Assembly: GCA_021741145.1 (NCBI GenBank)
Contig: JAIOYK010000005.1
Coordinates: forward strand, 62,001 to 126,000
Source of the DNA: Rhodospirillum sp.
GTDB taxonomy: Bacteria; Pseudomonadota; Alphaproteobacteria; Rhodospirillales; Rhodospirillaceae
Length of the DNA stretch: 64,000 nt
Direction of reading: 5' to 3'
This document shows, piece by piece, positions 44,014-64,000 of this stretch. Numbering within the stretch: position 1 is the first letter of the stretch; every line of letters starts with the position of its first letter. The translations under genes were made by a program, and so were the position numbers. The notes under the pieces were generated by a model. The model was given only the letters and a program-made list of their open reading frames with translations. It searched no databases and was not told where the DNA came from.

Positions 44014-44037
44014 GTCTAGAGGCCTTCATCGGCTTCC

Positions 44038-47917: not shown

Positions 47918-48031
47918 AGGATTAGTTTTCTGAACTGCCTTCTGGGGGAATAACGATTTGTGGATTCGGAAAATTTATATCTGATAAGCTAAAATTCGCA
48001 ATTTTTACTATAAAATTTAGTTGAACTCAAA

Positions 48032-48829
48032 TCACGAGTCAATGTAGATGTCACCCCACAATAATGGATCGGCATCCGCATGAAGATAATCGATCAAGAA
48101 GGCTTTATTCTCCCAAGTACCGAAACAAAAAAACGGATCTTCTGCTCGACAAAAATTGAACCGGTCATACCCCAAAGTCTCCAGATGGTCGAGCGCCCGG
48201 AAAACACTCTTGGCGGCTTCCACGGCATACTCCAGGGAGAGAATCCCAATCTTCCGGCCCAACCCCGCAACCACGCGTTCCTCGAACCCTTCCACGTCGA
48301 TCTTACAATAGGTTGGCGAACCATGGCGAGCCACCAGATCGTCCAGGGTCGTGACCGGAATCAAGAGGGATTTTTCCCATCGGTAACCCGCGAATCGACC
48401 GTGCTTCCACGCTTCGGAAAACGTACTGATGGTGGGCGCGTCCTCGCATATGGACAGGGGCAGCACCCCCGACCGATCCGCCAATCCAACCGGCTCGATC
48501 AACACGTCAGGGAGATCGGCGAACCGTTGCGCCAAAACGGCCAGACAAGCCGGTTGAGGCTCCACCAGAATCAGACGGCAGCCTTGCTCAAGAAACGGTC
48601 TCGCCTTTTCTCCGCGATGGGCGCCGATATCGAACACCAAATCCCCGGCCTCCACGAGGTCGATGATCCGGCGGCACCGCAAATCCGCCTCTCTCCGCTC
48701 CGCGAGACCGGTCAAACGGGTGATCTGGGCGGAAACAGTCGGCTGCGGGAAGGCCGCGTATAACGCCAAAGCTTGCTGGAAATCTCGCGCTCGGTGCGAA
48801 GCCAGAGCAGCCTCGAACAAGGCACCCAT
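48032..48829 (-). CDS. FkbM-family methyltransferase
   Basis: A 265-residue SAM-dependent O-methyltransferase. The SAM motif is LVFDIGAHRGEKA at 64-76, followed by the family's LVEPQPACL, TLDDLVARHG and YCKIDVEGFEERVVAGL. The ATG at 48829 lies 4 bases after the stop of the GT2 gene, so they are cotranscribed; the longer frame upstream runs inside that gene. It probably methylates a sugar hydroxyl of the surface glycan. Confidence 0.85.
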   Translation of the reverse strand: MGALFEAALASHRARDFQQALALYAAFPQPTVSAQITRLTGLAERREADLRCRRIIDLVEAGDLVFDIGAHRGEKARPFLEQGCRLILVEPQPACLAVLAQRFADLPDVLIEPVGLADRSGVLPLSICEDAPTISTFSEAWKHGRFAGYRWEKSLLIPVTTLDDLVARHGSPTYCKIDVEGFEERVVAGLGRKIGILSLEYAVEAAKSVFRALDHLETLGYDRFNFCRAEDPFFCFGTWENKAFLIDYLHADADPLLWGDIYIDS

Positions 48830-48833
48830 GGGA

Positions 48834-49751
48834 TCAGCCAAGCGCCTGTCCTTCCCACCCGATCTCTCCGACCTCCGCCGAGGGGGACCGGCCAGCGGCA
48901 ACCGGATAGGATCGCTCGCAGGCCTCCATGACACGCCCGAGCGCGAGAATATCGGAGGACGACATCTCTCCATACATGGCACCAGAGCCGCTTCGAAACG
49001 TCTTTACTTCACCACCCCTAAAGATGGCGCGACGGTGGGCGTCCACTCGTTCCACATAGTCCTTGACCGTCTTCTCGTTGTCCTCGCGGTTAATTTCCGT
49101 TTGGGAATTAGGATGAAGACGACCATAGGCGGCCACGATGGGAATGAAAGTCGATTGATAACCCCTAAGATTGAAATTCAAAACCATTTCAAGAAATGGG
49201 TTAGCTCGGGACATTAAGTCGTTCCGCTCGGCGGACGGAAAGCAGTCTTCGAAAACGGAGCGCCGAACAATGTAATTGATTTCCGGGTACCATAGGCGTG
49301 TCGCGAACCAGAAGCCCAGAAAAGCTTCCCCCTTAGGCGGAGGACGATCAAGCAGAACCGGCCACCACAGATGAATGAGACCACCATCTTCTTCCATATA
49401 CTGGCAACCGCCCCAAACAAGAGACAGCCGTGGATCGGCATCGAGCGCCGCCACGGCGCGGGCAAACCAGTTGCGAGACATGTAACCGTCCGAGGCACAG
49501 CAATGGCCGATGTATTCACCGGTCGCCATGGCCAAACCCTTTCGGAATCCCTCCAGCATGCAACTGTCCGGTTCCGATATCCATCGGAGATGATCATACC
49601 GGTCCAACAAGGCCTGCGTTCCGTCCGTGGATGCGCCGTCCACAACGATGTGCTCGTAATCCGAGAAACGCTGGAATTGGACGGATTGGATTGCCTCTTC
49701 CAATGTATGGGCGGAATTCTTAGTCGTGGTGATGATCGAGAGTTTGGACAT
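48834..49751 (-). CDS. GT2-family glycosyltransferase
   Basis: A 305-residue single-domain GT-A enzyme. It starts MSKLSIITTTKNSAHTLEEAI, with HIVVDGASTDGTQ and WISEPDSCMLEGFRKGLAMATGEYIG, and the acidic motif ASDGY where relatives have ADD. It resembles the type that transfers a hexose or aminosugar to a growing chain. Cotranscribed with the FkbM gene. The donor is unknown. Confidence 0.88.
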   Translation of the reverse strand: MSKLSIITTTKNSAHTLEEAIQSVQFQRFSDYEHIVVDGASTDGTQALLDRYDHLRWISEPDSCMLEGFRKGLAMATGEYIGHCCASDGYMSRNWFARAVAALDADPRLSLVWGGCQYMEEDGGLIHLWWPVLLDRPPPKGEAFLGFWFATRLWYPEINYIVRRSVFEDCFPSAERNDLMSRANPFLEMVLNFNLRGYQSTFIPIVAAYGRLHPNSQTEINREDNEKTVKDYVERVDAHRRAIFRGGEVKTFRSGSGAMYGEMSSSDILALGRVMEACERSYPVAAGRSPSAEVGEIGWEGQALG

Positions 49752-50118
49752 GCGTTGTATGAGCCCTTTCCAGTGCCCAAGGGGACGTGCGGTTGGTTCT
49801 GGCGAAAGGAGAGTTGTGTTTGCCTTAGCGTCTGACTCATGAGGGCTTAGCGCCCGGATTGATTGCTCAACTCATGACGTTTGTCATGAACAGTAGGACA
49901 CGGAAACAGGAGAGCACGACCAGATATGGATCAAGCATAAACAATGACCTTAAAATCGGGACTGGACAGTGTCAACGGAATTGGGGCCCGTTTCTTTTGA
50001 ATTGAAACTTCATTTTCTTATAATTTTCCATTGGGATAGCGCCAAATAGCCAGAGGGCGGATCGGGGATGGCTTTCCCGGCTGCGTTTGATCCCGATCGA
50101 TGGTGGTTCCAATGCTCT
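49752..50118. other. Intergenic region upstream of the GT2/FkbM pair
   Basis: No gene in these 367 bases. It contains a perfect dyad tcatgac-gttt-gtcatga (49872-49889), about 120 bases before the GT2 start, a candidate operator or hairpin. The stretch 49990-50040 is AT-rich and could include the promoter. Confidence 0.4.
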
Positions 50119-50877
50119 TCAGGTCAAGGATGCCGTGAGTCGCGCGGCGACGGGTTTTCCGTCAGGTTCCACGGAAGCCTCGCGCCGGGTAAAATGAAAG
50201 CAACCGCAACCATAGACCTGCGCGTCGCCCCGAGCCGGATCGGAGTGTCGTTCCAAGCCACCGCGCGGATCATCGGGAATCAAAGCAAATTCCGTCAAGT
50301 CGCAGTCATCGGCGAACATTCGGACCACCTCGGTCGCGGCGTAGATACGGTGCGCATTGTAAACCAACCGAGGCGTCCCCACTGGCACCACAAACAACAG
50401 GTCGCCACCGGGGGCAAGAACACGTTTCAATTCGGCCACCGCATCCAAGTCCCCCTCATAGTTCACCGGATCCCCATAGCGCCCCAGTCCCACATGTTCG
50501 ACAACATGCATGCAGGATAGGGAAGGAAGGCTCGCGTCGGCGAAGGGCAAGGCCGTCACGTCCGCGCGTTCCGACACCAAATTGTCCAAAACGATAGGCG
50601 CCGGACGGATATCCACGAAACGGATTGGAACAAAAGCCGACAGCAAGGTCGCGAAATAAAGGTAAGAAGAAATGTCGACATGCTCTACCGGAGCCCGATC
50701 TCGAACCACGCGTGCCGCCCAGGCGGTATGGTAAACATAGTGCGCATCAAAATCCGTTTGAGATTGATCATCCTCCAAGCATGGATAAATCTCGTTCGGA
50801 GACAGGATAAATCGGGGATTTTTCCGGTGCCCCGCCAGAAGGGCTGAATAGTTTTTTTTGAATATTTCCTCATCCAT
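50119..50877 (-). CDS. DUF268-type protein, probable SAM-dependent methyltransferase
   Basis: A 252-residue protein of the DUF268 family: VDISSYLYFATLLSAFVP, then SLSCMHVVEHVGLGRYGDP and LKRVLAPGGDLLFVVPVG, the pattern of a methyltransferase fold. The ATG at 50877 is preceded by GAGG at about 9 bases. It lies 92 bases after the fucosyltransferase fusion gene on the same strand. It probably acts on the glycan or its precursor. Confidence 0.8.
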   Translation of the reverse strand: MDEEIFKKNYSALLAGHRKNPRFILSPNEIYPCLEDDQSQTDFDAHYVYHTAWAARVVRDRAPVEHVDISSYLYFATLLSAFVPIRFVDIRPAPIVLDNLVSERADVTALPFADASLPSLSCMHVVEHVGLGRYGDPVNYEGDLDAVAELKRVLAPGGDLLFVVPVGTPRLVYNAHRIYAATEVVRMFADDCDLTEFALIPDDPRGGLERHSDPARGDAQVYGCGCFHFTRREASVEPDGKPVAARLTASLT

Positions 50878-50969
50878 GATGAGCACCCTCGTTCAATCAA
50901 ATCAATGGGACGGCCAGGGGGAAAGTCCAGGGCAAGACCGATGCCGAAGGCCCAATCGAGAAGCAGCCA

Positions 50970-52547
50970 TCAACCTTCGGAAATCTTGATCGCGCGAACA
51001 TGGTATCCATAGCAACCAAGAGCCGCCGACCCCTTGTCCTTACCCGCTAGATCGCACAGCCGCTCGGTCAAGGTCGTCACCGCCCGATCACCGATTTCTC
51101 CCAGGCCATCGCCCCCGTATTGCCGCGCCACGCTATCCAGACGACCCAGTTCTTGGGCCAGAAGATGGAAGTATGACCCATTGGGGGTCAGCTCCTCGAT
51201 CTTGAATCCCAATTTGGCCAAGTGAGTTTCGTAGAAATATCGATTGAAGCCCGTGGCGAAGTGATAGGGTGCGAAATGGGTCAAGCTCAGAAAGGGTGCG
51301 GTCAAAAGCAGGACACCACCCGGACGCAGAAGACGGGTCAGCTCCCGCAGAGCGTCCAAGGGATCGGGGACATGCTCCAGGACCTCGGTGCACAGAATGG
51401 CGTCGAAGGCCCCGTCGGGCTCGGGGATCGCGGAGATATCGCTGACAATGTCGAGTTCTTCTTGATCCCACCGCCCCATTTGCAGGCCCGTGGCGTCTCC
51501 CTGACCGTCATACTGGGCGAAATCCTGGGAAATATAGTCAAAAAGGGCACAATAGGGGGCGTAGATGCGTTCTCCGGCACCCGCATCCAGAAGACGGGTG
51601 CCCGGTGGTAAGGTACGCAACTGCTCAATGACCCATTGGTGACGTCCCGCTTCGTTGTCCTGCCCAGGCAATCGGGGCGACGGTCTGATTCCCAAACCCA
51701 TTTCGGCGGCGGGGATGACCCGCCAGCCCGAGGGAAACAGGTCGACCGCGTCCGGTGGGGTCTGGGCGGGACCCAACCATATGGCCGGGTCCGGGGCGAC
51801 GACAGGCTTGCCGACCCCATCACCCAACCAGGCGGCCCACCAACTGAAGGTGCTATTGGCGATCACAAGCTCATCGCAGCGACGCAACACTTCGAAATCC
51901 CTGATTTCATCCTCGCCTTCCAACACATCCATCGGCCGGGTTCCGGCGATCCCGGCGAAAGCTTGGCGACACCAAACGGGGTCATCACTGGCGACCACCA
52001 CCGCCGCCTCGCAGCCCGGGTCCAATAGAGACAAAGCACGAAGATGATACCGCAAGGGAAGCAGGGTGTGGTTTCCCCGCCCGTCCTCCACCCGATAGTC
52101 ACCACGCCGGACGTGCAGACCGATAAGGCGGGCGCGTTCACCACAAGCATCAACCACCCTGGTCGCGGCGGTTTGGACGGAAGGATGAGACGCCAAAGGC
52201 GTCAGCTCCTCGCGGACAATGTCGGCGATTTCCGTGAAATAGCGGAGACTTTGCCAATAGCCTTCCAAAACCGTCCCGTCCCCCAGTTTGGAAAACTCCG
52301 GGGCATACCCCACCCCTTGCTGACGAACCCAGCTAAGGCCCGGCTGGCGCCTGTGAAAGGGCATGACGGGCAAGGCTGTGATCGGAAAGGCATCCAGCAT
52401 GTACGCTCGTCCTCGATCGTTGCTCGCGGACTCCAGGAGAGAAAGGTCCAACCGCAATTCCGCCCCACGGGCTTCGGCCAAGGCCCGCCCCGCGGCATAT
52501 TGGAAAAGCTGATTGCCCAACCCCCCTTGCAAGGTGATGATGATCAT
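50970..52547 (-). CDS. Alpha-1,2-fucosyltransferase fused to a methyltransferase
   Basis: A 525-residue fusion. Residues 2-283 are a GT11 alpha-1,2-fucosyltransferase: IITLQGGLGNQLFQYAAGRA, the catalytic HVRRGDY at 145-151, and ELVIANSTFSWWAAWLG. Residues about 300-525 are a class I SAM methyltransferase with LLDAGAGE (319-326), CTEVLEHVPDPLDALREL and a PGGVLLLTAPF motif. There is no stop or frameshift between them. GAGG lies 9 bases before the ATG. The natural reading is that one protein adds a 6-deoxy sugar and methylates it or its neighbour. The donor is probably a GDP-6-deoxysugar. Confidence 0.88.
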   Translation of the reverse strand: MIIITLQGGLGNQLFQYAAGRALAEARGAELRLDLSLLESASNDRGRAYMLDAFPITALPVMPFHRRQPGLSWVRQQGVGYAPEFSKLGDGTVLEGYWQSLRYFTEIADIVREELTPLASHPSVQTAATRVVDACGERARLIGLHVRRGDYRVEDGRGNHTLLPLRYHLRALSLLDPGCEAAVVVASDDPVWCRQAFAGIAGTRPMDVLEGEDEIRDFEVLRRCDELVIANSTFSWWAAWLGDGVGKPVVAPDPAIWLGPAQTPPDAVDLFPSGWRVIPAAEMGLGIRPSPRLPGQDNEAGRHQWVIEQLRTLPPGTRLLDAGAGERIYAPYCALFDYISQDFAQYDGQGDATGLQMGRWDQEELDIVSDISAIPEPDGAFDAILCTEVLEHVPDPLDALRELTRLLRPGGVLLLTAPFLSLTHFAPYHFATGFNRYFYETHLAKLGFKIEELTPNGSYFHLLAQELGRLDSVARQYGGDGLGEIGDRAVTTLTERLCDLAGKDKGSAALGCYGYHVRAIKISEG

Positions 52548-52557
52548 CAAACACGCC

Positions 52558-53496
52558 TCATAAATTGTTGTAAGTGGCGCCGCGAACCATCTGGAACCCC
52601 TTGATCAGTTCCACGATTCCGTCATCCAAGGAGTGAGCGCAGCGGAATCCGGTCGCCTCCAGCCGGGCGTTGGAGACAATGTAGTCCCGTTTGTCCGGAT
52701 CTTCGCCCAAGGGCGCCTCCAGGATATGGAAATCTGGCAGGTGCCGCTTGATGGTCTGGCATAGATCCATCTTCGACAGGTTGGCGTCGCTCAGACCCGC
52801 GTTGTAAGGCCAGCCCCGCATCCCGTCGAAATGAGTCAAACCGTGCAGGAAAACCCGCGCCACATCATGCACGTGCAGATAATTCCGCTTGAAGTGAGGC
52901 TCGAACAAGACCACCGAGCGATCATAGACGGCCCGGTGGACAAAATCGTTGACCAGCAGGTCCAAACGCATCCGCGGCGACATGCCAAAAACCGTGGCCA
53001 AGCGAAAGGTCAGCGTGTTCTCCCGTTCCAAGGCGGCGGCTTCGGCTTCCACCTTGGTCCGCCCGTACAGGGAGATCGGGCGCAAGGGAGAAGTCTCGTC
53101 ACAGGCCTGACCGGGGCGACCGATCCCATAGCCACTGTTGGTGATCGGCATCAGCACCCTTTGGTCCGGAGACAACAATGTCAGGGTCTCGCGCACCGCG
53201 TCCAGGTTCAAGGTCTTCGCCGCTATGATATCGGCGGCGCAGGCGGGCGCGCCCACCACCGCGGCCAGGGGAATGACCGCGTCGACCTCGGCCAAAAGGG
53301 GCTTCACAAGCGTCATGTCCCGGGCGTCGCCACGCACAAGGGACAAAGCGGGGTTCCAGCAGACCTGGGCCAAGGAGACCTGTTTGAAGTGGAAATTGTC
53401 CAGGACCGTCACCTGATATCCGGCGGCCAGCAGTTCGGGAACCAGGATCGAGCCCAGATAGCCAGCTCCACCGGTCACGAGAATGCGCATGTTCAT
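52558..53496 (-). CDS. NAD-dependent epimerase/dehydratase
   Basis: A short-chain dehydrogenase-type sugar nucleotide enzyme of 312 residues. It starts MNMRILVTGGAGYLGSILVPELL (NAD motif GGAGYLG), with the catalytic Tyr and Lys in LYGRTKVEAEA (SLYGRTK). A second ATG two codons later is an alternative; AAGGACCAGGA precedes both. It ends 10 bases before the fucosyltransferase fusion. The exact reaction (C4 or C2 epimerase, or reductase) cannot be told. Confidence 0.85.
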   Translation of the reverse strand: MNMRILVTGGAGYLGSILVPELLAAGYQVTVLDNFHFKQVSLAQVCWNPALSLVRGDARDMTLVKPLLAEVDAVIPLAAVVGAPACAADIIAAKTLNLDAVRETLTLLSPDQRVLMPITNSGYGIGRPGQACDETSPLRPISLYGRTKVEAEAAALERENTLTFRLATVFGMSPRMRLDLLVNDFVHRAVYDRSVVLFEPHFKRNYLHVHDVARVFLHGLTHFDGMRGWPYNAGLSDANLSKMDLCQTIKRHLPDFHILEAPLGEDPDKRDYIVSNARLEATGFRCAHSLDDGIVELIKGFQMVRGATYNNL

Positions 53497-53598
53497 GGTC
53501 GTCCTGGTCCTTATCCCCTGAGATGTCCCCGCCGGTCGTCGGATCAAGGACTTCAATCTCGCGCACCGTCCGATGGCTCTTTTGGAAGCATCGATCCG

Positions 53599-54405
53599 CT
53601 AGGACCGATGCGCGGCCATGGAGGCGATGACCCCCATCCCCAAGCGGCCCTCCTCCAGATCCCGACGCAGCAGGTCGTTGATAATCATGGCGTGAAAAAA
53701 CAGATGCTTATCAAGCCCGGCGGTAACCGTATTGGCCAGTGCCGGATCGGTGGTGTCGGGACGGTGGTGGTAATTGGCCAAAACGGAAGGGACCACCATG
53801 ATCTCGAAATGGCGCAGCATCCTGATATTGAACTCCCAATCCCCCAGAACCGGCAAGTCCGCCCGATACCCTCCGACCGCCTCCAGCACACGCCGTTCAT
53901 AAAGAAGAGCCAGATTCGGGATGAAATTGGATCCAGCCATGCGCCACAGCGGAACCTCGCGGAAGGGATCTCCGTAAAACTCCATGTTCTTTACGGTGAC
54001 GCCTTCGTCGGTCACCTCCTCGATCACCTTGCGGGTCCAACAGGCCACGGCGCCCACTTTCGGATGGGGCTTGCTTGCCAGGGCCCCCAGCATGACTTCC
54101 AGATAGGTTGGTTCCCAAGAGTCGTCGTCGTCATGGACAACGATATGGTCCCCTTGGGCCACCTCCAGGCCGGCATTGGAGGCATCCTCCATGCCCAGGC
54201 TTTCCAATCGGTGCACCACGTGAATCTTCCCTCTTTCCGCGACGGGAAAGATGTGGCGGTACAATCGCTCCACCGGTGCCGGATCTCCAACGTCATTGAC
54301 CACGATCAGTTCCCAGTCTCCATGGGTCTGCGCGCGAATGCCCATCATGGCCCGGGCAAGCATGAGCGGACGGTTCTTCGTCCGCATGATGATGGAAACG
54401 GTCAT
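53599..54405 (-). CDS. GT2-family glycosyltransferase
   Basis: A 268-residue GT-A enzyme. It starts MTVSIIMRTKNRPLMLARAM, contains ELIVVNDVGDP and the metal-binding HDDDDSWEPTYLEVM, then GAVACWTRKVIEE. GGAAG precedes the ATG by 6 bases. The donor is unknown. A 21-base tandem repeat lies 55-96 bases upstream. Confidence 0.88.
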   Translation of the reverse strand: MTVSIIMRTKNRPLMLARAMMGIRAQTHGDWELIVVNDVGDPAPVERLYRHIFPVAERGKIHVVHRLESLGMEDASNAGLEVAQGDHIVVHDDDDSWEPTYLEVMLGALASKPHPKVGAVACWTRKVIEEVTDEGVTVKNMEFYGDPFREVPLWRMAGSNFIPNLALLYERRVLEAVGGYRADLPVLGDWEFNIRMLRHFEIMVVPSVLANYHHRPDTTDPALANTVTAGLDKHLFFHAMIINDLLRRDLEEGRLGMGVIASMAAHRS

Positions 54406-54459
54406 TGAGATCTTCCGGTTCAAGGCGAAGAAACGAGACCCTATCCGTTCCCTTGAAAA

Positions 54460-54501
54460 TTTTCCTTAACGGGTCGGGATTTTTCCTTAACGGGTCGGGA
54501 T
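54460..54501. repeat. Perfect 21-bp tandem repeat upstream of a GT2 gene
   Basis: Two exact copies of a 21-base unit (ttttccttaacgggtcgggat) lie side by side at 54460-54480 and 54481-54501. The unit is in the promoter/leader of the GT2 gene and could alter its expression by copy number. Confidence 0.9.
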
Positions 54502-54597
54502 AATGTATCGGTTGATCCACCAAAGCACGACCCCGCGATCAACCGAGGGCGTGTTCTAGATATTTGAATTTAGAACAGTCTTCCGGCCGGAAAATGC

Positions 54598-56613
54598 TCA
54601 AGACCGTGGGACGACAACGGGGGGAGACGTTGGAGGCACGCCGATGGCGGCTTCCGTCCAACTGAACGTGGCCTGAAACGTACCGCCCCGTCGGGCATAC
54701 AGCAATTTTGTTCGCGCGAAATCCCATCCACTCTCGAAGACTTCCTCGCTGGGATAGGCCAAATACTCCCCGCGGATCATGTCTTGCCCAGTCCCATCAA
54801 GGCCGTCAAACCAGGTCGGCCAATCCCGCGTAAAAAACGCCGCGCCGCGCCCTTCGGACTTGAGCGCGGATTTAGGCTGGGGAACCGTCAAGCGTTGATA
54901 GGCGATGACCTCCGCCACTTCCTCGGGATCATGCTCCCGTCCGACCGTCACCAGATACCGCGAGACAAGGCGCTCCAATTCCGCGAAAAAGGGGGACGCC
55001 CGATCCGCCAAGCGCAGAAAGCTGGCCTCTTCCACCGCCCAATAGAGATCTCCAAATCCGTCCACGACCACGCCCCGACCTTTTCCGGCGGCGATGGCAT
55101 CCATGAACGCGCCATAGTGGTCGAGTTCCGCCCGCCACAGGGGAACATCGTCGCCAATGCGTCCTTCGTCGGAGAGCCAACCAAGAAAATCACTGTAGGG
55201 CACCCCCAGTCGATGGCGCAGATAGCGAAGCAGATAACTCCCAAGACGCAGACCCATCAGAGTCATCGTGCACCATGAGAAAATTCCCGCCCGCCTCCAG
55301 TCGGCCACTGGCATGCTCTCGCTTCCGATCACATAATCGATGTATTCGACGACCCGCGCTCCGTCATGAATGTTGCTATGAACCCCATGACTCACGTTGC
55401 GACGAACGACCAAGCCGTGGCGCTCCCGATAGGCGGGATCGGCCATTTCGGTATTGGGATACAATTCGCACAGGACGATGATCAACTGGGCATCACTCGA
55501 TAATTCCAACAGCGCACCCACACCCCCCACCATGCTTTCGTAGGTCTCGCCAGGTAAGCCCAGGATCAATTCACAAAAGACGGGAATCCCCGCGCCTTCG
55601 AACCGTTTTTGCAGGGTGTGATAGGTATCGAGTTGAATGTTATCCCGTTTGGTGGCCGCCAAGGCGGTGGGGGACATGGACTGGCGAGAGAGCCCCACTC
55701 CCTTTTGCATGCCATGGGCGTGCAGACGCCGGGTAATCTGGAAAATGCGCTCATTGGTGTTCTTGCCGTAGAGGTTCACCACCTTTTCCGGTGCCCCATG
55801 GCGGCGGCGGGTTTCCACCATGTATTCCGCGATGTCCTCGTCCCGCCGGTGCATCCCGAAGTTGGAGTCCGCATTGTAGACGAACAGAATGCCATTGCGG
55901 CCCATCCAGTCCAGTTCCCCACGCACCCGATCCAGACCGAAATAGCGGTATTTTCGACTCAACCCCCCCTTTCCCCAATAGCAGAACGTACAGTGGAAGG
56001 GGCAACCTCGATTGGTTTCGATGATTGCTTGAAAGCGCGTCCCGGGATGGGCGGCCAGAACAGGATCGAACAACCCCTCAAGGTAGGGCGAGGGATAGAG
56101 GTCCAGATCGCGCTCGAAATCGAGCGGGGCCGGGTTGACGATCACCCTGTCCGTCCCCCCCTCCCTCCAGGTCAGATTGGCGATATCGGCAAAGGTCCTC
56201 TTCCCTTCCGCCAAGTGACGCAGGACCGCGCGAAAGGGCTCTTCTCCCTCGCCACGAACCGCGCAATCGATAAAGGGATGGGTGTCGAAATACTCCCGAC
56301 TATCATGGGGAACCTGGGTGCCACCGAACACAATCAGACAATCGGGCCACCGGTCCTTCACCGCCGCGGCCACCCGCAAACACAGCTGCTCGTTCCATAT
56401 CGCCGCCGAGAACGCGGCCACGGAGGGATCGTCATAGGCGGCCAGGATCGTTTCTGGGCCGTCAATGCGGAACAGGTACGGCATGAACGTGCATTCGGCC
56501 CGAACCTTGGAATCCGTCAGGGCATGGGCATGCAATTTTCCGGAAACCAAGGGAAGGTACGCGGTGTTCGCCACGTAAGGATTGTATTCATTTAAGTATA
56601 TCCGCATGGACAT
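54598..56613 (-). CDS. B12-binding-type radical SAM protein
   Basis: A 671-residue radical SAM enzyme. The N-terminal ~190 residues resemble a cobalamin-binding Rossmann domain (AAFSAAIWNEQ, LIVFGGTQVPHD, GEGEEPFRAVLRHL), although the usual DxHxxG signature is absent. The 4Fe-4S cluster motif CPFHCTFC is at 204-211. The remaining C-terminal half has LGLPGETYESMV and a helical extension of unknown role. Such enzymes often methylate unactivated carbons. Its place at the head of a glycan operon suggests a sugar or lipid substrate. The start may also be two codons later (56607). Confidence 0.85.
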   Translation of the reverse strand: MSMRIYLNEYNPYVANTAYLPLVSGKLHAHALTDSKVRAECTFMPYLFRIDGPETILAAYDDPSVAAFSAAIWNEQLCLRVAAAVKDRWPDCLIVFGGTQVPHDSREYFDTHPFIDCAVRGEGEEPFRAVLRHLAEGKRTFADIANLTWREGGTDRVIVNPAPLDFERDLDLYPSPYLEGLFDPVLAAHPGTRFQAIIETNRGCPFHCTFCYWGKGGLSRKYRYFGLDRVRGELDWMGRNGILFVYNADSNFGMHRRDEDIAEYMVETRRRHGAPEKVVNLYGKNTNERIFQITRRLHAHGMQKGVGLSRQSMSPTALAATKRDNIQLDTYHTLQKRFEGAGIPVFCELILGLPGETYESMVGGVGALLELSSDAQLIIVLCELYPNTEMADPAYRERHGLVVRRNVSHGVHSNIHDGARVVEYIDYVIGSESMPVADWRRAGIFSWCTMTLMGLRLGSYLLRYLRHRLGVPYSDFLGWLSDEGRIGDDVPLWRAELDHYGAFMDAIAAGKGRGVVVDGFGDLYWAVEEASFLRLADRASPFFAELERLVSRYLVTVGREHDPEEVAEVIAYQRLTVPQPKSALKSEGRGAAFFTRDWPTWFDGLDGTGQDMIRGEYLAYPSEEVFESGWDFARTKLLYARRGGTFQATFSWTEAAIGVPPTSPPVVVPRS

Positions 56614-56787
56614 GCTTCCGTGATATTCGGGAACAGGCTTGTCCCGCCCCATGGTCGAGCTTACCAGCGGAAAAAGCTCATCGCAAATTTAGTCGGTTTC
56701 CAAATTCCATGTTTTCCATTTAAACCTTTCTTAAGGTGCTGACTTTAAGGTTTGTTGAAAAATAGCGGGTCAAGGAGTGACCTTAAA
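56614..56787. promoter_or_regulatory. Divergent promoter region of the two glycan arms
   Basis: An AT-rich 174-base stretch separates the divergent rSAM and cupin genes. It holds an inverted repeat aaacctt...aaggttt (56722-56728 and 56747-56753) and two copies of ttaaggt 14 bases apart (56731-56737 and 56745-56751). These are candidate regulator sites common to both arms. Confidence 0.4.
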
Positions 56788-57306
56788 ATGCGAATATCAG
56801 AAACTGATATTGCCGATGTTCGAGTGATCACCCCCGATGTATTCGAGGATTATAGGGGCGAGTATATAGAAACGTATAACGAGGAAACCTACAAGGAAGC
56901 GGGTATTTTCGTTGACTTCGTTCAGGATGACATTTCGTATTCCAGAAAAGATACGTTAAGGGGCCTGCATGGCGACGGGGAGACCTGGAAGCTGGTATCC
57001 TGCGTGCTTGGTGACATCTATCTGGTGGTGCTCGACTTACGACCTGAATCCCCGTCTCGCGGTCGATGGTGTTCCTTCATGATCACCGACCGCAACCATC
57101 GGCAGGTCCTGGTCCCCCCAGGATGCGCCAATGGCCACTTGGCGCTCAGTGACCGGGTGGGCTTTCATTACAAGCAATCCACCTACTACAAGCCCGGAAC
57201 CCAGTTCACGGTGCGTTGGGACGATCCCGATCATGCGATCCACTGGCCAATCACGCGGCCCCTTCTTTCCCGACGGGACGCCTCGGGCGGGACGAGATCC
57301 CCATGA
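56788..57306 (+). CDS. RmlC-like sugar nucleotide 3,5-epimerase
   Basis: A 172-residue cupin of the dTDP-4-dehydrorhamnose 3,5-epimerase type. It has TLRGLHGD, KLVSCVLGDIYLVVLDLR, SPSRGRW and VPPGCANGHLALSD followed by FHYKQSTYY. The neighbours point to GDP-heptose, so it may act as the MlghB/DdahB-type epimerases of Campylobacter do; this is inference. The ATG at 56788 is preceded by AAGGAG. The kinase start overlaps its stop as ATGA. Confidence 0.85.
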   Translation: MRISETDIADVRVITPDVFEDYRGEYIETYNEETYKEAGIFVDFVQDDISYSRKDTLRGLHGDGETWKLVSCVLGDIYLVVLDLRPESPSRGRWCSFMITDRNHRQVLVPPGCANGHLALSDRVGFHYKQSTYYKPGTQFTVRWDDPDHAIHWPITRPLLSRRDASGGTRSP

Positions 57307-58283
57307 TCATTACCCGCACCCCGTTCCGCATATCCTTTTTCGGTGGCGGGACCGACTACCCCGAGTGGTTCGAGACCAATGGCGGCGCGGTCCTGGCGAC
57401 CACCATAAACCGCTATTGCTACCTCACTTTGCGCAGGCTTCCGCCCTTTTTTACCGAACGGCACCGCGTCGTTTACAACCGCATCGAACTGACCCAGGAG
57501 TTGGACGAGATCCAGCACCCGGCGGTCCGGGCTTGTCTGAAGGCCCATGGAATCAATGACGGCGTGGAATTGGTCCATAACGCCGACCTTCCCGCCAGAA
57601 CGGGCCTTGGGTCCTCCAGTTCCTTCACGGTCGGCCTGCTGAACGCCCTGAATGGTCTGGATGGACGCCTGCGCGACCAACGGTGGCTGGCGACCGAAGC
57701 CATCCGGCTGGAACGAGAGGTCATGGGCGAAAACGTGGGGTGGCAAGATCAGATCCTGGCCGCCTTCGGAGGCTTCAACCGCATCGACTTTTCCTCCGAT
57801 GCCTTTCACGTGCGGCCCCTGCCGCTCACGCAAACCTGCCGCCAGAACCTGCTTGACCATCTGCTGCTGTTTTACACCGGCGTCTCCCGCTATTCCTCCG
57901 ACATCGCCCGCGACCAAATCCGCAATATTCCAAGACGTGAAACCCAACTCCGCGAGATGGCCGCTTTGGTTCCCTTGGCCACGGAGGCCCTGATGGCGGA
58001 GGATTACCCAACCTTTGGCGCCATGCTCCATGAAAGCTGGATTCGCAAACGCTCTCTGTCCGACCGAGTCTCCACCGAACAAATCGACGATCTCTATGCC
58101 CGTGCCCTGGCCGCGGGAGCCTGGGGAGGCAAGGTTCTGGGCGCCGGTGGTGGCGGCTTCATCCTGATCATGGCCGAACCGGGCCGGCATCAGGCCATTC
58201 TGAGCACCCTGGGTGATCTGCTTCACGTGCCCTTCCGCTTTGAAACGGAAGGAAGCCGGATCATCTTCCTCAGCGACGAGTAG
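57303..58283 (+). CDS. hddA: GHMP kinase, D-glycero-D-manno-heptose 7-phosphate kinase type
   Basis: A 326-residue sugar kinase. It starts MIITRTPFRISFFGGGTDYPEWF, and the ATP-binding motif GLGSSSSF is at 101-108. The GGGTD-YPEWF motif and length fit HddA, which phosphorylates heptose 7-phosphate at C1 before activation with GDP. A third GHMP motif, LGAGGGGFILIM, is near 280. The ATG overlaps the previous stop by 4 bases, and the next gene starts 9 bases downstream. Confidence 0.85.
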   Translation: MIITRTPFRISFFGGGTDYPEWFETNGGAVLATTINRYCYLTLRRLPPFFTERHRVVYNRIELTQELDEIQHPAVRACLKAHGINDGVELVHNADLPARTGLGSSSSFTVGLLNALNGLDGRLRDQRWLATEAIRLEREVMGENVGWQDQILAAFGGFNRIDFSSDAFHVRPLPLTQTCRQNLLDHLLLFYTGVSRYSSDIARDQIRNIPRRETQLREMAALVPLATEALMAEDYPTFGAMLHESWIRKRSLSDRVSTEQIDDLYARALAAGAWGGKVLGAGGGGFILIMAEPGRHQAILSTLGDLLHVPFRFETEGSRIIFLSDE

Positions 58284-58292
58284 GGGACGGAG

Positions 58293-59102
58293 ATGCCACA
58301 TCCCGACGGCCTTTCGGCCATCATTCTCGCCGGCGGTTTGGGCACCCGGCTACGCTCGACCGTCGGTGATCGACCCAAGGTTCTGGCACCGGTCGCCGAA
58401 CGCCCCTTCCTGGACTGGCTTCTCGCCATTCTCGCCGCCTCCGGTCCCGTGACGGAGGTGGTACTGTCCCTCGGCTACGGAGCCGAGCAGGTCATTGCCC
58501 ACCTGTCGCATGGATCCCTTCCCCTACCGGTCCGCTGGGTCGTCGAGGAGCGACCCCTTGGCACGGCGGGTGGCGCCCTGCTCGCCGCCCGCGAAACCCG
58601 AACACCCCTGGCCCTGGTTCTAAACGGCGATACATTTCTGGGCCTGGACATCGGTGCCATGGCGCGGGACCACCGGACGGCGTCCCCGGTCGCCACCATG
58701 GCCGTGGTTCACCAGGATAATCGGGACCGATATGGTGGCGTCGATCTTGATGGTGATCGCGTGACGGCCCTTCGGGAAAAGGCGCCCGGCCTGGGTTCTG
58801 GTCTTATCAACGCCGGAGCCTATATGATGGCGCGGACGGTTCTCGTCGACCGCCGCGTGGCCCCCCTGTCGATGGAGACGGACCTGTTGCCCGCGCTGAT
58901 ATCCCTCGGCGTGGCGGCCCATCGGGTCGAGGGACCCTTCCTCGATATTGGCCTGCCCGATACCTACGCCCAAGCCACCGCCCTGCTGCCCAGACTGGTG
59001 CCCCGCACCTCCCGGGCCTTGTCCTCGCCTCTCGGAGCCCAAGCCAGTTCCCTCCATCCCAGTCCCCTCCATCACCGTCGTTCCCCCGGGAGGCCATCGT
59101 GA
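58293..59102 (+). CDS. hddC: Sugar nucleotidyltransferase, heptose 1-phosphate guanylyltransferase type
   Basis: A 269-residue nucleotidyltransferase with the signature LAGGLGTRLR at 12-21 and RPK at 27-29, then VLNGDTFLGLD with the metal-binding Asp. It follows HddA-like kinase, the same pair as in Campylobacter and other GDP-heptose loci, so the likely reaction is formation of GDP-D-glycero-D-manno-heptose. Mannose-1-phosphate is an alternative substrate. The last 30 residues are low-complexity. Its stop overlaps the next GTG start. Confidence 0.82.
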   Translation: MPHPDGLSAIILAGGLGTRLRSTVGDRPKVLAPVAERPFLDWLLAILAASGPVTEVVLSLGYGAEQVIAHLSHGSLPLPVRWVVEERPLGTAGGALLAARETRTPLALVLNGDTFLGLDIGAMARDHRTASPVATMAVVHQDNRDRYGGVDLDGDRVTALREKAPGLGSGLINAGAYMMARTVLVDRRVAPLSMETDLLPALISLGVAAHRVEGPFLDIGLPDTYAQATALLPRLVPRTSRALSSPLGAQASSLHPSPLHHRRSPGRPS

Positions 59103-59938
59103 CCCGTTCTGATGTTTCCGCTCCCCATTCGCTGCCGCGGGTGGCGAATCATCTGCGCAATCAGGTTCTGGAACTGTGTTACCGCCACGGTGGCCATGCT
59201 TCCACGGCGTTCAGTTGCGTGGAGATCCTCGTCGCCCTCTATCACGGGGGCATCCTGCGGGTCGATCCAAGCGCGCCGGAGGATCTGGATCGGGACCGTT
59301 TCCTGCTCAGCAAGGGCCATGGGGAAACCATTCTCTATGCCGTTCTCGCCGATCTGGGCTTCTTTCCAGAGGATTGGCTGTGGACCCACTACCGGTCGGG
59401 CGACCACCGCCTGGGCGGCCATGTGGACCATCAAACCCCGGGCATCGAAACCACCTCCGGCGCGTTGGGACACGGTCTGGGACTGGCCTGCGGTTTGACC
59501 CTGGCCGCGCGCATGGATGGCCAGGCTCGGCGCCATGTGGTCCTCATGGGTGACGCGGAATGTTCCGAGGGATCCGTCTGGGAGGCCGCTCTGTTCGCCG
59601 CCCAATGGGGCCTGGGGCGCCTGACCGCGATTGTTGATCGCAACCATATCGGGTCCCTGGATCACACCCGGAACTATTTGGCGCTTGAGCCCTTCGCCGC
59701 CAAATGGGAAGCCTTCGGCTGGGAGGTCGTCCCCGTCGATGGCCACGACCTGACGGCCCTGGACAAGGCCCTGTCGCCCCGGGGCGAAGCCGAGGGCAAG
59801 CCCCGTCTCGTTCTCGCCGAAACGGTCAAGGGCAAGGGCTGTCGGATGATGGAAAACGATCCCATCTGGCACGTCCGACCGGTGACGGACGATGTCATCG
59901 CCCAGTGCAGGGAGGATCTGACATGGACGGGACCCTGA
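59099..59938 (+). CDS. Transketolase N-terminal subunit
   Basis: A 279-residue protein equal to the thiamine-diphosphate-binding half of transketolase. The TPP motif runs GDAECSEGSVWEAALFA near 152; it also has LLSKGHGETILYAVLA and TSGALGHGLGLACG. The GTG start overlaps the previous stop. The C-terminal half is encoded by the next gene, which overlaps this one. Split transketolases occur in sugar-biosynthesis loci; here it could supply sedoheptulose 7-phosphate or add a two-carbon branch to a sugar. Confidence 0.92.
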   Translation: MTRSDVSAPHSLPRVANHLRNQVLELCYRHGGHASTAFSCVEILVALYHGGILRVDPSAPEDLDRDRFLLSKGHGETILYAVLADLGFFPEDWLWTHYRSGDHRLGGHVDHQTPGIETTSGALGHGLGLACGLTLAARMDGQARRHVVLMGDAECSEGSVWEAALFAAQWGLGRLTAIVDRNHIGSLDHTRNYLALEPFAAKWEAFGWEVVPVDGHDLTALDKALSPRGEAEGKPRLVLAETVKGKGCRMMENDPIWHVRPVTDDVIAQCREDLTWTGP

Positions 59939-60897
59939 CCATGGATCACAGCCGTATGGACATGCGAGACGCCTTTTTCTCCACGCTCTTCGACAGGGCC
60001 CGGAACGACGCCAACATCCTGGTGGTCTCGAACGACTTCGGCGCGCCCAGCCTGGACCGCTTTCGCGCCGAGTTGCCCGGCCAGTTCATCAACGCCGGTA
60101 TTTCCGAACAGAACATGGTTTCGCTGGCCGCCGGACTAACCATGGGGGGAAAGACGGTGGTGGTGTATTCAATCGCCACTTTCGTCACCTTGCGCTCCTG
60201 CGAACAGATTAAGATCGATCTTTGCGCCATGCGCTTGCCGGTGACGATCCTGGGCGTGGGTACCGGCTACGCCTACAACGCCGACGGCCCCACCCACAAC
60301 GCCATGGAAGACATGGCCGTGATGCGCGCCATGGCCCATATGACGGTCCTTTCCCCCAGTGACGCCGAGGTGGCCAAGGTCTGCGCCGAGCGTCTCCCCC
60401 TGGCCAAGGGGGGGCCGGTCTATCTTCGCTGCGACCGGGGCACATGGCCCGCCCTGGGCGAGGCTGAAACCCTGGTCGAAAAGGGGCTGGTCCCCCGCCG
60501 CGCGGGCACGGACCTGGCCCTTGTGGCCACCGGCGGCATGGTCCATCGAGCCTTGGACGTGGCCTCCCGGCTGGAAAGCGAGGGGCTGTCCACCTGTGTC
60601 ATCGATCTGGCCCGGGTGAAGCCCATCCCCATGGACCTGATGGCCTTGCTCGCCTCCGTGGCCGCGGTGGCGACCATGGAGGAGCATACCACCCATGGCG
60701 GCCTGGGCGGAGCCGTCGCCGAATTCATGGCCGACCACAACCTGGTCAAACCCTTGCGTCGTCTGGCCATCGATGACGATCACCTTTACGCCTATGGCGC
60801 CCGTCCGACCCTGCACGTCCAACGCGGTCTGGACGCCGAAGGCGCCACGACAACCCTTCGTTCCTGGATCAACGACCGCCGGAAGTCCACGCCATGA
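59923..60897 (+). CDS. Transketolase C-terminal subunit
   Basis: A 324-residue protein equal to the pyrimidine-binding and C-terminal domains of transketolase. It has RFRAELPGQFINAGISEQNMVSLAAGL, where the conserved Glu of the cofactor site sits in ISEQNM, and ends with a typical transketolase C domain. The ATG at 59923 has GGAGG upstream and overlaps the previous gene by 16 bases; the ATG at 59941 is a weaker alternative. Its stop overlaps the next start as ATGA. Confidence 0.92.
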   Translation: MDGTLTMDHSRMDMRDAFFSTLFDRARNDANILVVSNDFGAPSLDRFRAELPGQFINAGISEQNMVSLAAGLTMGGKTVVVYSIATFVTLRSCEQIKIDLCAMRLPVTILGVGTGYAYNADGPTHNAMEDMAVMRAMAHMTVLSPSDAEVAKVCAERLPLAKGGPVYLRCDRGTWPALGEAETLVEKGLVPRRAGTDLALVATGGMVHRALDVASRLESEGLSTCVIDLARVKPIPMDLMALLASVAAVATMEEHTTHGGLGGAVAEFMADHNLVKPLRRLAIDDDHLYAYGARPTLHVQRGLDAEGATTTLRSWINDRRKSTP

Positions 60898-61907
60898 CCG
60901 TTTCCCCTTCCTCCGCCATGACCTTCCGCAGAGTGGTGGTCACCGGGTCCTCGGCGGTGGCCGGAACCGCCCTGCGCGCCCTGGCCCCCCAGCTGCATCC
61001 CAAGACGGAATGGCTGTTTCCCTCCTCCCGGGACTGCGACCTGACCGACTGGACCGCCACCCGGGATTGGCTGGACGCCGCCCGCCCCGATGGGATCGTC
61101 CACCTCGCCGCCGTCAGCGGTGGCATCGGACTGAGCATGAAGCATCCGGCCAGCCTGCTGCGGGACAATACCCTGATGGGCCTGAATGTGTTGGAGGCCG
61201 CCCGCCGTCTGAAGGTTCGCAAGGTGGTGATGACTCTGACCACCGGCGCCTATCCACCCGAAGCACCCTTGCCCCTGCGAGAGGAAAGCCTACAGGCGGG
61301 CCCCCCCCATGAGTCGAACTATGGGTCGTCCTACGCCAAACGTCTGATGGAACCGGCCATTCAGGCCTACCGGGAGGAATATGGCCTACCCGCGGTGGGT
61401 CTTGTCCCCAACGGAATTTTTGGACCCAACGACAATTTCAACGAAAACGATGCCCCCATGTTGCCCGCCCTGATCCGCCGCTTTTATGAAAGCCGGACCG
61501 GAACGGACCCCATCGTTATCTGGGGTGATGGAACGCCCTTGCGCGAATACACCTATTCCGACGACGTGGCCCGGGCCTTCCTGTGGGCTCTGCATGAATA
61601 TGACGACGGCCAGGTCCTGAATTCCGGAACCACCGAGGAATTGCCGATCGCCGATATCGCGCTCATGATCGCCGATATCCTGGGAATTGACCGAAACCGC
61701 ATCGCCTTCGACACCAGCAAACCCAAGGGAGTGTTCCGCAAGAACACGGACAACAGCCGGTTCGTCGCGGCCTCTGGTTTCCGCTATACGCCGTTCCGCG
61801 AAGGGTTGGAGAAAACCATCGCCTGGTTCGTCGAGGCCCGCGAAACCAATCCGCGAAGCCTGCGCCTCGGCGGCAAGCTGGACGGTCACAAGGACACTGT
61901 CGCATGA
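60894..61907 (+). CDS. GDP-L-fucose synthase-like epimerase/reductase
   Basis: A 337-residue short-chain reductase of the Fcl/WcaG type. It has a degenerate Rossmann motif (VTGSSAVAGTALRAL), the catalytic YGSSYAKR, and the family block GPNDNFNENDAPMLPALIRRFYE. In GDP-fucose synthesis such enzymes epimerise and reduce a 4-keto sugar; in Campylobacter relatives (MlghC) the substrate is a GDP-heptose. Given the neighbours the latter is likelier. It overlaps the genes on both sides. Confidence 0.85.
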   Translation: MTVSPSSAMTFRRVVVTGSSAVAGTALRALAPQLHPKTEWLFPSSRDCDLTDWTATRDWLDAARPDGIVHLAAVSGGIGLSMKHPASLLRDNTLMGLNVLEAARRLKVRKVVMTLTTGAYPPEAPLPLREESLQAGPPHESNYGSSYAKRLMEPAIQAYREEYGLPAVGLVPNGIFGPNDNFNENDAPMLPALIRRFYESRTGTDPIVIWGDGTPLREYTYSDDVARAFLWALHEYDDGQVLNSGTTEELPIADIALMIADILGIDRNRIAFDTSKPKGVFRKNTDNSRFVAASGFRYTPFREGLEKTIAWFVEARETNPRSLRLGGKLDGHKDTVA

Positions 61908-62908
61908 CCCCCCGCGCCCAACGGAGCCTTTGGGTCGGCGGCCCGAAGGTATCGGAAATCGGGTTCGGCACCTGGGGACTTGGTGGAGAGTCCTACGGTC
62001 CCATGGACCGGGCGACGGCGATCCCCCTGCTGCGCGCCGCCCGCGACCGCGGCGTGACCTTCTACGACACCTCCGACCTGTACGGCGGAGGTCGCGCCGA
62101 GGAACTCCTGGGAGAAGCCTTCCTTGGCACCCAGGGAGACAGCGTGGTGATCGCCACCAAGGGCGGCCTTCTCCCCCATCGGGGCTTCACCATGCCCGAG
62201 GATTTCTCCACCCGTCACATGCGCGCCGCCCTGGAGGACAGCCTCCGTCGTCTCCGCCGCGAGCGGGTGGATCTCTACCAGTTGCACAGCCCCAGCCGGG
62301 AGACTTTGCGGGAAAGGGGCGATGCTTTGACAGGCCTTTTCAGCGACCTGCGGGACAAGGGGATGATTGGCGGGCTTGCCCTGTCCGCCCGGTCCCCATC
62401 CGACGCCCTGGAGGCCTTGGAGGTCCTGGCCCTACCCTTCGACGCGGTTCAGGTGAACCTGAACATGATTGACCAAAGAGCCGTGGAGAACGGCTTGCTT
62501 TCCCTGTGCCATCGGCGCGGGATAGGGGTTATTGCCCGGACCCCCCTCTGTTTCGGCTATCTGACCGGCCGATTGACCGGCCAGGACCACTTCCCCGGCC
62601 AGGACCATCGGGCCAATTGGCCCGATGACCAGTTGAGCCGCTGGGCCGGCGCCCCAGGCTTGTTCGACGCGCTCCATGGACCCGCCAGCGGTCGGACGGC
62701 GGCCCAACTGGCGCTGCTGTATTGCTTGGCCCAGCCCGGCGTCGCCACCGTGATCCCCGGCATGATGACCCAGCAACAAATGGAGGAAAATCTGGTCGCC
62801 GCCACTCTTCCTCCCTTGACGGAAGCCGAGTTGGACCGGATTACAACCATTTACCGCGCCAACACCTTCTACGACACCGGCGCCAAGACCAGAGAGCGCC
62901 ATGTCTGA
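61904..62908 (+). CDS. Aldo/keto reductase
   Basis: A 334-residue NADPH-dependent reductase with the barrel signatures GVTFYDTSDLYGGGRAEELLGEAF and VVIATKGGL, with the family's Asp, Tyr and Lys in place (FYDTSDLY, TKGG). Aldo/keto reductases in glycan loci reduce keto-sugars. The start overlaps the previous stop by 4 bases. Which keto group it reduces is unknown. Confidence 0.85.
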   Translation: MTPRAQRSLWVGGPKVSEIGFGTWGLGGESYGPMDRATAIPLLRAARDRGVTFYDTSDLYGGGRAEELLGEAFLGTQGDSVVIATKGGLLPHRGFTMPEDFSTRHMRAALEDSLRRLRRERVDLYQLHSPSRETLRERGDALTGLFSDLRDKGMIGGLALSARSPSDALEALEVLALPFDAVQVNLNMIDQRAVENGLLSLCHRRGIGVIARTPLCFGYLTGRLTGQDHFPGQDHRANWPDDQLSRWAGAPGLFDALHGPASGRTAAQLALLYCLAQPGVATVIPGMMTQQQMEENLVAATLPPLTEAELDRITTIYRANTFYDTGAKTRERHV

Positions 62909-63686
62909 CACCCCGACCCAGCGGAAAGCCGATCCCAATCGATTCCTGGAACCCGCGCGCACAACCGCCGCCGAAGTGGACTATCGCCGGGGCATGGAAG
63001 AGTATTTCGCCGCCAGTCCCGGCAGCAACATGGAAAAATTACAGAACTTCCCGAAGTACGTCCCGGTTCAGGACATGCGCCGCTTTGTCTGCCGGTATGA
63101 ACTGTTCAAGCAGGTCCTGGAGGTCCATGGCTCGATCGTGGAATGTGGTGTGCTGTTTGGCGGCGGGTTGATGACCTGGGCCCAGTGCTCCGAAATTTTC
63201 GAACCCTTCAATCATCTGCGAACCATCATCGGATTCGACACCTTCGACGGCTTCCCCGCGCTCCATGACCATGATCGGGGGGGCAGCGCCAGCCAACTCA
63301 AGGAACGGGGGTTGGCCGTCGACAGCGAAGCGGACCTCCGCGACTCCATCGCCCTTTTCGACGCCAATCGGGTCCTCAAGCATCTTCCCAAGGTGGATCT
63401 GGTCCGCGGCGACGCGAACAAGACGATTCCCGCCTATCTGGAGCGGACTCCCCATTTGGTGGTCAGTCTGCTTTGGCTGGATTTCGACATTTATGAGCCG
63501 ACCAAAACAGCACTCACCCATTTCCTGCCTCGCATGCCCAAGGGGGCGATCGTGGCCTTCGATGAACTGAATCACGCGGTGTGGCCAGGCGAAACCGTGG
63601 CGGTCATGGATTCCGTCGGGATCTCTCACCTTCGCCTGCGGCGATTCGCCCATGGGTCGACCGTCTCCTACGCGGTCATCGAGTAA
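62901..63686 (+). CDS. TylF/MycF-type O-methyltransferase
   Basis: A 261-residue SAM-dependent methyltransferase of the macrocin-methyltransferase type. Marks are GSIVECGVLFGGGLMTW, IIGFDTFDGFP, VDLVRGDANKTIPAYL, and LLWLDFDIYEPTKTALTHFLPRMPKGAIVAFDELN. These enzymes methylate sugar hydroxyls with Mg. AGAGAG precedes the ATG; it overlaps the previous gene by 8 bases. Confidence 0.85.
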   Translation: MSDTPTQRKADPNRFLEPARTTAAEVDYRRGMEEYFAASPGSNMEKLQNFPKYVPVQDMRRFVCRYELFKQVLEVHGSIVECGVLFGGGLMTWAQCSEIFEPFNHLRTIIGFDTFDGFPALHDHDRGGSASQLKERGLAVDSEADLRDSIALFDANRVLKHLPKVDLVRGDANKTIPAYLERTPHLVVSLLWLDFDIYEPTKTALTHFLPRMPKGAIVAFDELNHAVWPGETVAVMDSVGISHLRLRRFAHGSTVSYAVIE

Positions 63687-63689
63687 CCC

Positions 63690-64000
63690 ATGGCGCCGGA
63701 TTCCTGGGTTCCTCTGACTCCGGCCCTGTTGGCTCCCCTTTTCGGCGGGTCCGCCGAGGACATCCAACGGGCGAGCACGACTCTGCCCCCCGCGGATCTC
63801 GCCCTTCGCCTTCTGTCGCGCGCCCGGCGGGACGACCTCGTCCAGGACACGCACGCGCGCCTGAACCAGGGGTTTCCCCGCTCCGGTGAAAACCGCCTCG
63901 CCGCATGGGAACGGGGATGGGGCGAAAACTTGATGGCGTTCCAGCGAACCGGAAATCTGGACGCTCTCGTGCCAGGGTATGTTCGCCCCGGGGAAATACT
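63690..64000 (+). CDS. Partial ORF, possible sugar methyltransferase
   Basis: An ATG at 63690, 3 bases after the TylF stop, opens a frame that is still open at the window's right edge (103 codons). It contains ENRLAAWERGWGENL and GNLDALVPGYVRPGE, a pattern I associate with uncharacterised O-methyltransferase-type glycan proteins, though not with certainty. It continues the operon. Confidence 0.5.
   Translation, partial: MAPDSWVPLTPALLAPLFGGSAEDIQRASTTLPPADLALRLLSRARRDDLVQDTHARLNQGFPRSGENRLAAWERGWGENLMAFQRTGNLDALVPGYVRPGEI

Follow-up and report, generated by a model that had tools for sequence, protein, structure and literature searches.

A split transketolase is encoded within an operon of GDP-heptose-type enzymes near the end of a 64,000-nucleotide stretch of Rhodospirillum sp. 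DNA (the window; contig C81, bases 62001-126000; genome of 5.47 Mb in 110 contigs). The cassette to which it belongs is real and conserved, recurring in other genomes as a nucleotidyltransferase, an HddA-type kinase, the split transketolase, EpiB (a short-chain dehydrogenase/reductase [SDR]), an Fcl-like protein, an aldo/keto reductase (AKR), and a TylF-type methyltransferase. From gene content, linkage, homology, and residues we infer each reaction, the GDP and heptose identity of the substrate, and the point of attachment, and we give a probability of roughly 55% to the reading that the split transketolase transfers a two-carbon (C2) branch to GDP-4-keto-heptose. In this pathway the kinase and nucleotidyltransferase would convert a heptose 7-phosphate to a GDP-activated heptose, with GmhA- and GmhB-type steps supplied by genes elsewhere; EpiB would oxidize C4 of the GDP-heptose; and the RmlC-like enzyme would epimerize C3 and/or C5. 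With a ketose phosphate as donor, the split transketolase would then attach a hydroxyacetyl (C2) unit at the C4 ketone. The result would be a branched nine-carbon sugar, whose branch ketone would be reduced by the aldo/keto reductase and whose hydroxyls would be methylated by one or two methyltransferases for use in an envelope glycan. The genes are as follows.

52558..53556, minus strand: EpiB, an SDR related to GDP-heptose C4-dehydrogenase; the real start is probably within the frame.
56788..57306, plus strand: RmlC-like C3/C5 epimerase (PF00908, 174 bits).
57303..58283, plus strand: HddA-type GHMP kinase (best solved match, 4usk).
58293..59102, plus strand: HddC-like sugar-1-phosphate nucleotidyltransferase (profile and solved-structure matches).
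59099..59938, plus strand: split transketolase N subunit (TKN), binding thiamine diphosphate (ThDP); family match, four catalytic-site His retained.
59941..60897, plus strand: split transketolase C subunit (TKC; pyr+C); H461 equivalent is Gly, D469 and H473 equivalents retained.
60894..61907, plus strand: Fcl-like SDR with an altered active site (S to T, Y to S, C to G, H to P).
61904..62908, plus strand: aldo/keto reductase, tetrad D55/Y60/K86/H128; candidate branch ketoreductase.
62901..63686, plus strand: TylF-type O-methyltransferase, 61 to 75% identical in the cassettes of four other genomes.
63690..64000 in the window, plus strand, ending at 64625 on the contig (beyond the window): second methyltransferase, 311 amino acids.

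The preliminary description of this DNA had listed seven genes, from the RmlC-like epimerase to the aldo/keto reductase, and their order and start-stop overlaps were borne out by open frames and family matches, the seven packed frames being joined by 4-base overlaps or gaps of 2 to 9 bases. Its placing of the operon end at 62908 was premature: two methyltransferase genes continue the row, the TylF-type gene overlapping the aldo/keto reductase gene by 8 bases and the second methyltransferase gene following after 3 bases. The TKC start is likely the ATG at 59941, codon 59935 being CTG; the searches used 59935, which makes the protein two residues longer. Divergent from this row runs an operon of a B12/radical SAM gene, a glycosyltransferase, EpiB, a GT11-methyltransferase protein, and more glycosyltransferases.

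The cassette was found in two Azospirillum genomes, in Desulfobacteraceae metagenome-assembled genomes (MAGs), and in an Anaerolineae MAG, and, as judged from the sequences, its match across genomes exceeds chance. On plasmid pAB510f of Azospirillum sp. B510 (L164), the row TKN-TKC-Fcl-AKR-TylF is divergent from kinase-NUDIX-EpiB, with 56 to 75% identity to the window; compared with the cassettes of four further genomes, the window proteins showed 47 to 74% identity. When genomes were scanned with the aligned N subunits of the window and B510 as the query, 14 loci were returned, the close ones being Azospirillum brasilense ATCC 49958 (L169, 66%), the Anaerolineae MAG (L170, 64%), and two loci of Desulfobacteraceae MAGs (L171, 57%; L182, 50%); the remainder were L172 at 47%, which is without the cassette, and nine Pelagibacteraceae loci at 30 to 34%. 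Relatives of the kinase and EpiB were present in all four close genomes, and EpiB, the cassette transketolase, and the kinase occur together in six of six genomes (the window's included; five of five others). An RmlC-like gene lies near the cassette in two of the five other genomes: the Anaerolineae contig (L194, overlapping L170) carries one together with two related glycosyltransferases, and in ATCC 49958 one lies about 8 kb beyond the TylF-type gene. One Desulfobacteraceae MAG has a contig end with GmhA-HldE-nucleotidyltransferase-kinase-TKN (L195), which shares exactly 127 bases with a contig bearing TKN-TKC-EpiB-Fcl-AKR-TylF. Two of the three phyla are known from MAGs, so binning errors are possible. 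In Azospirillum argentinense Az39, a split transketolase is divergent from radical SAM, EpiB, and kinase genes; in Azospirillum lipoferum 4B, the kinase lacks EpiB, a transketolase, and E1 at distances up to 10 kb. Of eight kinase-bearing plasmids, four were examined.

The candidate C4 oxidase, EpiB, matched PDB 6vo6 at 362.6 bits, with the runner-up match at 71.3. We take 6vo6 to be the Campylobacter jejuni GDP-heptose C4-dehydrogenase Cj1427; its record says putative sugar-nucleotide epimerase/dehydratase. Cj1427 carries out C4 oxidation of GDP-heptose, preceding C3/C5 epimerization and C4 reduction (PMC10680097, excerpts). The Fcl-like gene had been described as an MlghC-type C4 reductase, an assignment that alignment to human GDP-fucose synthase did not support: Ser is replaced by Thr, Tyr by Ser, Cys by Gly, and His by Pro, so that of the catalytic residues Tyr, Cys, and His have been lost and Lys is retained. 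The same losses appeared in all five genomes compared (window, B510, ATCC 49958, Desulfobacteraceae L182, and Anaerolineae); the Fcl2 proteins of other kinase loci, L045 and L048, retain all five residues. All five genomes have a Tyr two positions before the missing one, and it might substitute. A protein without Tyr, Cys, and His would be no ordinary C4 reductase and would leave the 4-ketone free for carboligation, and this loss makes the C2-branch reading more probable. The aldo/keto reductase, with its tetrad complete, is likely the pathway reductase by analogy to Pau7, an AKR that reduces the C4 branch in paulomycin (PMC4753412, excerpts); it could act on C4 itself instead.

The GDP-heptose setting was supported in that the best solved matches of the HddA- and HddC-type candidates were heptokinases and mannoheptose-pathway proteins, but both candidates scored below the NCBIfam cut-offs. 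The kinase matched 4usk, presumably WcbL, at 150.5 bits, another heptokinase at 129, and a further protein at 110, compared with 60 for fucokinase; on the NCBIfam HddA model it scored 126.6 bits (cut-off, 600). The catalytic residues of WcbL are R13 and D163 (PMC4691232, excerpts), to which R9 and D149 of the kinase correspond. For the nucleotidyltransferase, the top solved match was a "6-deoxy-mannoheptose pathway" protein at 109.9 bits, with human GMPPB at 79, and the HddC NCBIfam model gave 121.9 bits (cut-off, 300) against 125.1 for the mannose-1-phosphate model. The likening of the RmlC-like protein to MlghB stood in part. MlghB/DdahB have H67 and K74 at a spacing of 7, N121, and H123, the RmlC spacing being 10 by the paper's numbering (PMC7949155, excerpts), and the RmlC-like protein has H61 and K68 at a spacing of 7, N115 and H117 at the places of N121 and H123, and Y128. 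It deviates in having F at the Y132 equivalent and an off-spacing Asp (D164 instead of 167). It also exceeds the dTDP-RmlC cut-off of NCBIfam (159.1 versus 155.75), and its best solved match was Salmonella RmlC at 131 bits, with GDP-heptose epimerases at 111.5. A downstream search for gmhA, gmhB, and a C4 oxidase had been proposed; the oxidase candidate turned up in the divergent operon as EpiB, and neither gmhA nor gmhB was found in or beside the operon. On other contigs, the genome has an HldE that exceeds its cut-off, a GmhB-like gene (C67), and, on C32 only, a GmhA-like gene scoring 186.4 bits (cut-off, 209.45). Plasmid pAB510f encodes, some 12 kb away from the kinase of B510, a fusion of a nucleotidyltransferase with a GmhB-type HAD phosphatase (L164:26691-27914) that scored 165.7 bits on the GmhB model (cut-off, 178). 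The chemistry of the cassette is likely that of a heptose in a GDP-linked setting, which is supported but not proven.

We number transketolase residues as in the Escherichia coli enzyme, and we take R358, S385, H461, and R520 to form the phosphate site, with H461 as its His. The ThDP-binding and catalytic His equivalents H26, H66, H100, H261, and H473 are present in the window's enzyme. All six cassette pairs retain R358, D469, H473, and R520 and have Gly at H461, the S385 column being ambiguous; the N-subunit catalytic His are retained in the five complete pairs, the L182 N subunit being partial. The nearest solved relative of both subunits is the split transketolase of Carboxydothermus hydrogenoformans (6yaj/6yak; 197 and 146 bits), which, unlike the cassette enzymes, retains the H461 equivalent as well as that of D469, and H461 is also His in the four full-length transketolases of the window's own genome. 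Listeria split transketolases stood at 46 to 47%. In a tree of 51 rows (L005, L148, and L135 left out; L123 unusable, having no N-subunit frame), the cassette transketolases were monophyletic (100/98) with L045 as sister (99/98), and both fell within a larger clade of split transketolases from sugar loci (36 rows, 98/99). Across that clade, the H461 position is Gly in 35 rows and Ser in one (L083); among the other split rows, it is His in 4 of 13. The Gly fits a changed acceptor site, leaving a ketone acceptor unproven. Loss of D469 was dropped as evidence for altered function, since all six cassette enzymes have this residue, and they alone keep it within the clade. The window's genome also holds a second split transketolase (L005:1426-3308) with odd residues at several catalytic positions.

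Gene neighborhoods of related transketolases and kinases were surveyed in the 40 best loci of each, the former from 70 and the latter from 55 matched genomes out of 385. Several split-transketolase stretches are short contig ends. Twelve of these 40 loci had no other match to the query set; among the other 28, there was a match in 26 and none in L114 and L115, and an SDR of the query set was present in 21 of the 28. Three members of the 36-row clade (L116, L117, and L118) share their locus with a CDP-glucose 4,6-dehydratase that exceeds its cut-off. A glucose-1-phosphate cytidylyltransferase does so as well in L117 and L118 and falls slightly short in L116 (290.2 versus 300.25), and L118 has RfbH in addition. 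The YerE route uses a CDP-4-keto sugar, of which CDP-glucose 4,6-dehydratase and RfbH are the makers (PMC12247030, excerpts). These three loci are candidates for transketolase-made branched 6-deoxyhexoses. Separately, an alphaproteobacterial row of HldE-like, GmhA-like, SDR, HAD, APH-like, TKN, and TKC genes recurs (L119-L152; e.g., L125:2624-9257 and L149:2162-8927); any of HldE, GmhA, HAD, or APH was seen in 21 of the 40 loci, and most of the nine Pelagibacteraceae loci had similar matches.

Among the kinase loci, EpiB was found in 23 of 40, GmhA in 6, RmlC in 6, and a split transketolase in 2. An alpha and beta pair resembling pyruvate dehydrogenase E1 (PDH-E1) was present in 20 of 40 (at least one subunit in 23), and a 3-dehydratase-like gene of the pyridoxal phosphate (PLP) type in 19; those whose motif was read have HH, with His replacing the PLP Lys. 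A ThDP carboligase adjoins the kinase and EpiB in 18 of the 23 EpiB-bearing loci; the row on pDMC1 of Solidesulfovibrio magneticus reads kinase-E1a-E1b-Fcl-DegT-EpiB-nucleotidyltransferase. A tight cassette of E1a-E1b-PLP 3-dehydratase-like-EpiB-(Fcl2 or radical SAM)-nucleotidyltransferase-kinase was seen in L044-L064, L073, and L166:8007-16985. The E1a-E1b/PLP/EpiB/kinase arrangement may be a GDP-heptose counterpart of yersiniose synthesis, where the logic of 4-oxidation, 3-dehydration, and C2 addition is similar (PMC12247030, excerpts).

The preliminary description had cast the transketolase as a dedicated supplier of sedoheptulose 7-phosphate (S7P) for GDP-heptose synthesis, with a C2 branch on the activated sugar as its alternative. 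The alternative fits better, and C2-branch transfer appears the more likely of the two; S7P supply, which we consider unlikely, draws its strongest support from the split-transketolase loci, where HldE-like genes occur in 16 of 40, GmhA-like genes in 16, and both in 15. One Desulfobacteraceae genome also has GmhA in its cassette row, together with HldE, the nucleotidyltransferase, the kinase, and the transketolase, and L045 has it beside the kinase and transketolase; the cassette transketolases, moreover, retain donor-site residues. The role would be redundant, because the genome has four full-length transketolase-like genes, three of them retaining R358/H461/D469/H473. GmhA was not found in the cassette stretches examined of the window, B510, ATCC 49958, and the Anaerolineae MAG, and the cassette enzymes are without H461. 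The CDP-glucose genes beside the relatives in L116 to L118 make a 4-keto sugar, and S7P has no evident use there. Many of the related kinase loci, moreover, have the E1-like pair in place of a split transketolase. The GmhA and HldE counts weigh against C2-branch transfer, as do several other points: the D469, R358, and R520 equivalents are those of ordinary transketolases, the H461 site is not diagnostic (4 of the 12 unrelated split transketolases either have a non-His residue there on other grounds or retain the His), 5 of the 23 EpiB-bearing kinase loci have no ThDP gene in the stretch examined, and 7 of the 40 kinase loci have a ThDP pair and no EpiB. No transketolase has been shown to act on a ketone acceptor (PMC12247030, section 9), and no glycan structure of a cassette strain was found in the literature.

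The C2-branch chemistry on a 4-keto sugar might be as proposed but with an activated substrate other than a heptose, such as a hexose. Consistent with this are the kinase and nucleotidyltransferase scores far under the HddA and HddC cut-offs, the near tie with the mannose-1-phosphate model, the passing of the dTDP-rhamnose model by the RmlC-like protein, and the lack of GmhA in most cassettes; the heptose enzymes as best solved matches, the presence of EpiB, the nucleotidyltransferase-GmhB fusion near the B510 cassette, and GmhA/HldE in the Desulfobacteraceae row point the other way, and we regard this substitution as distinctly unlikely. It is very improbable that the transketolase extends a phosphorylated precursor before activation (e.g., to octulose phosphate), yielding a longer linear sugar: the retained donor-site residues and GmhA-type neighbors are consistent with such an extension, which leaves the E1-like swap and the CDP-glucose loci unexplained.

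The closest known systems are the C. jejuni GDP-heptose pathways (HddA, HddC, Cj1427, MlghB, and MlghC), with which the cassette has in common a kinase, a nucleotidyltransferase, a C4-dehydrogenase relative, and RmlC-like and Fcl-like proteins (PMC10680097 and PMC7949155, excerpts). Compared with these, the cassette adds the split transketolase, the aldo/keto reductase, and the methyltransferases, its Fcl-like protein is without the catalytic residues, and its operon is without GmhA and GmhB; the excerpts of PMC10680097 on C. jejuni GDP-heptose make no mention of "transketolase" or "branched." Split-gene transketolases are also proposed for miharamycin and amipurimycin, with a keto sugar as the acceptor of the hydroxyacetyl unit (PMC12247030, section 9). 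Those enzymes (13 sequences, none tested, likened here by description only) belong to Streptomyces secondary-metabolite clusters, whereas the present cassettes, with their GDP-heptose-type enzymes, are loci of a glycan type in Gram-negative bacteria and Anaerolineae. YerE of yersiniose and the AviB1-AviB2-type E1 are ThDP enzymes acting on nucleotide or glycosidic 4-keto sugars (PMC12247030, excerpts); YerE is a decarboxylase-group flavoprotein and E1 pairs pass acetyl from pyruvate, whereas the cassette transketolase would give hydroxyacetyl. The preliminary description knew of no operon with a split transketolase built into a GDP-heptose pathway, and we found none described for a GDP-heptose or envelope-sugar pathway in the open-access literature, most subscription papers being outside that scope.

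Other features lie beside the cassette. A B12-binding radical SAM protein (54598-56652) is encoded divergently from it, with the KedN5 family C-methyltransferase as top NCBIfam model (252 bits; cut-off, 700) and a 45% relative in L061. A single frame at 50970-52550 joins GT11 fucosyltransferase-like and methyltransferase domains. A tRNA-Gly (43939-44013) borders a stretch of lower G+C content (43939-56652), a possible island; G+C is 0.574 at 46 to 56.6 kb, compared with 0.633 at 1 to 44 kb and 0.628 in the transketolase row.

Sugar branching by a transketolase has so far been put forward only for a few Streptomyces antibiotics and has never been demonstrated (PMC12247030, section 9). Many gene arrangements like the present one exist in genomes, and we would put at even odds a wider proposal in which the split transketolase transfers hydroxyacetyl to GDP-4-keto-heptose, split transketolases encoded next to CDP-glucose and ADP-heptose-type genes act likewise, and the E1-like pairs provide the acetyl version, so that one interchangeable ThDP branching step would serve several nucleotide-sugar routes in at least three phyla. 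The presence of the cassette in culturable Azospirillum makes the proposed transketolase branching directly testable. If true, branched sugars found in bacterial glycans could be accounted for in this way, and tertiary alcohol synthesis would gain a new enzyme.

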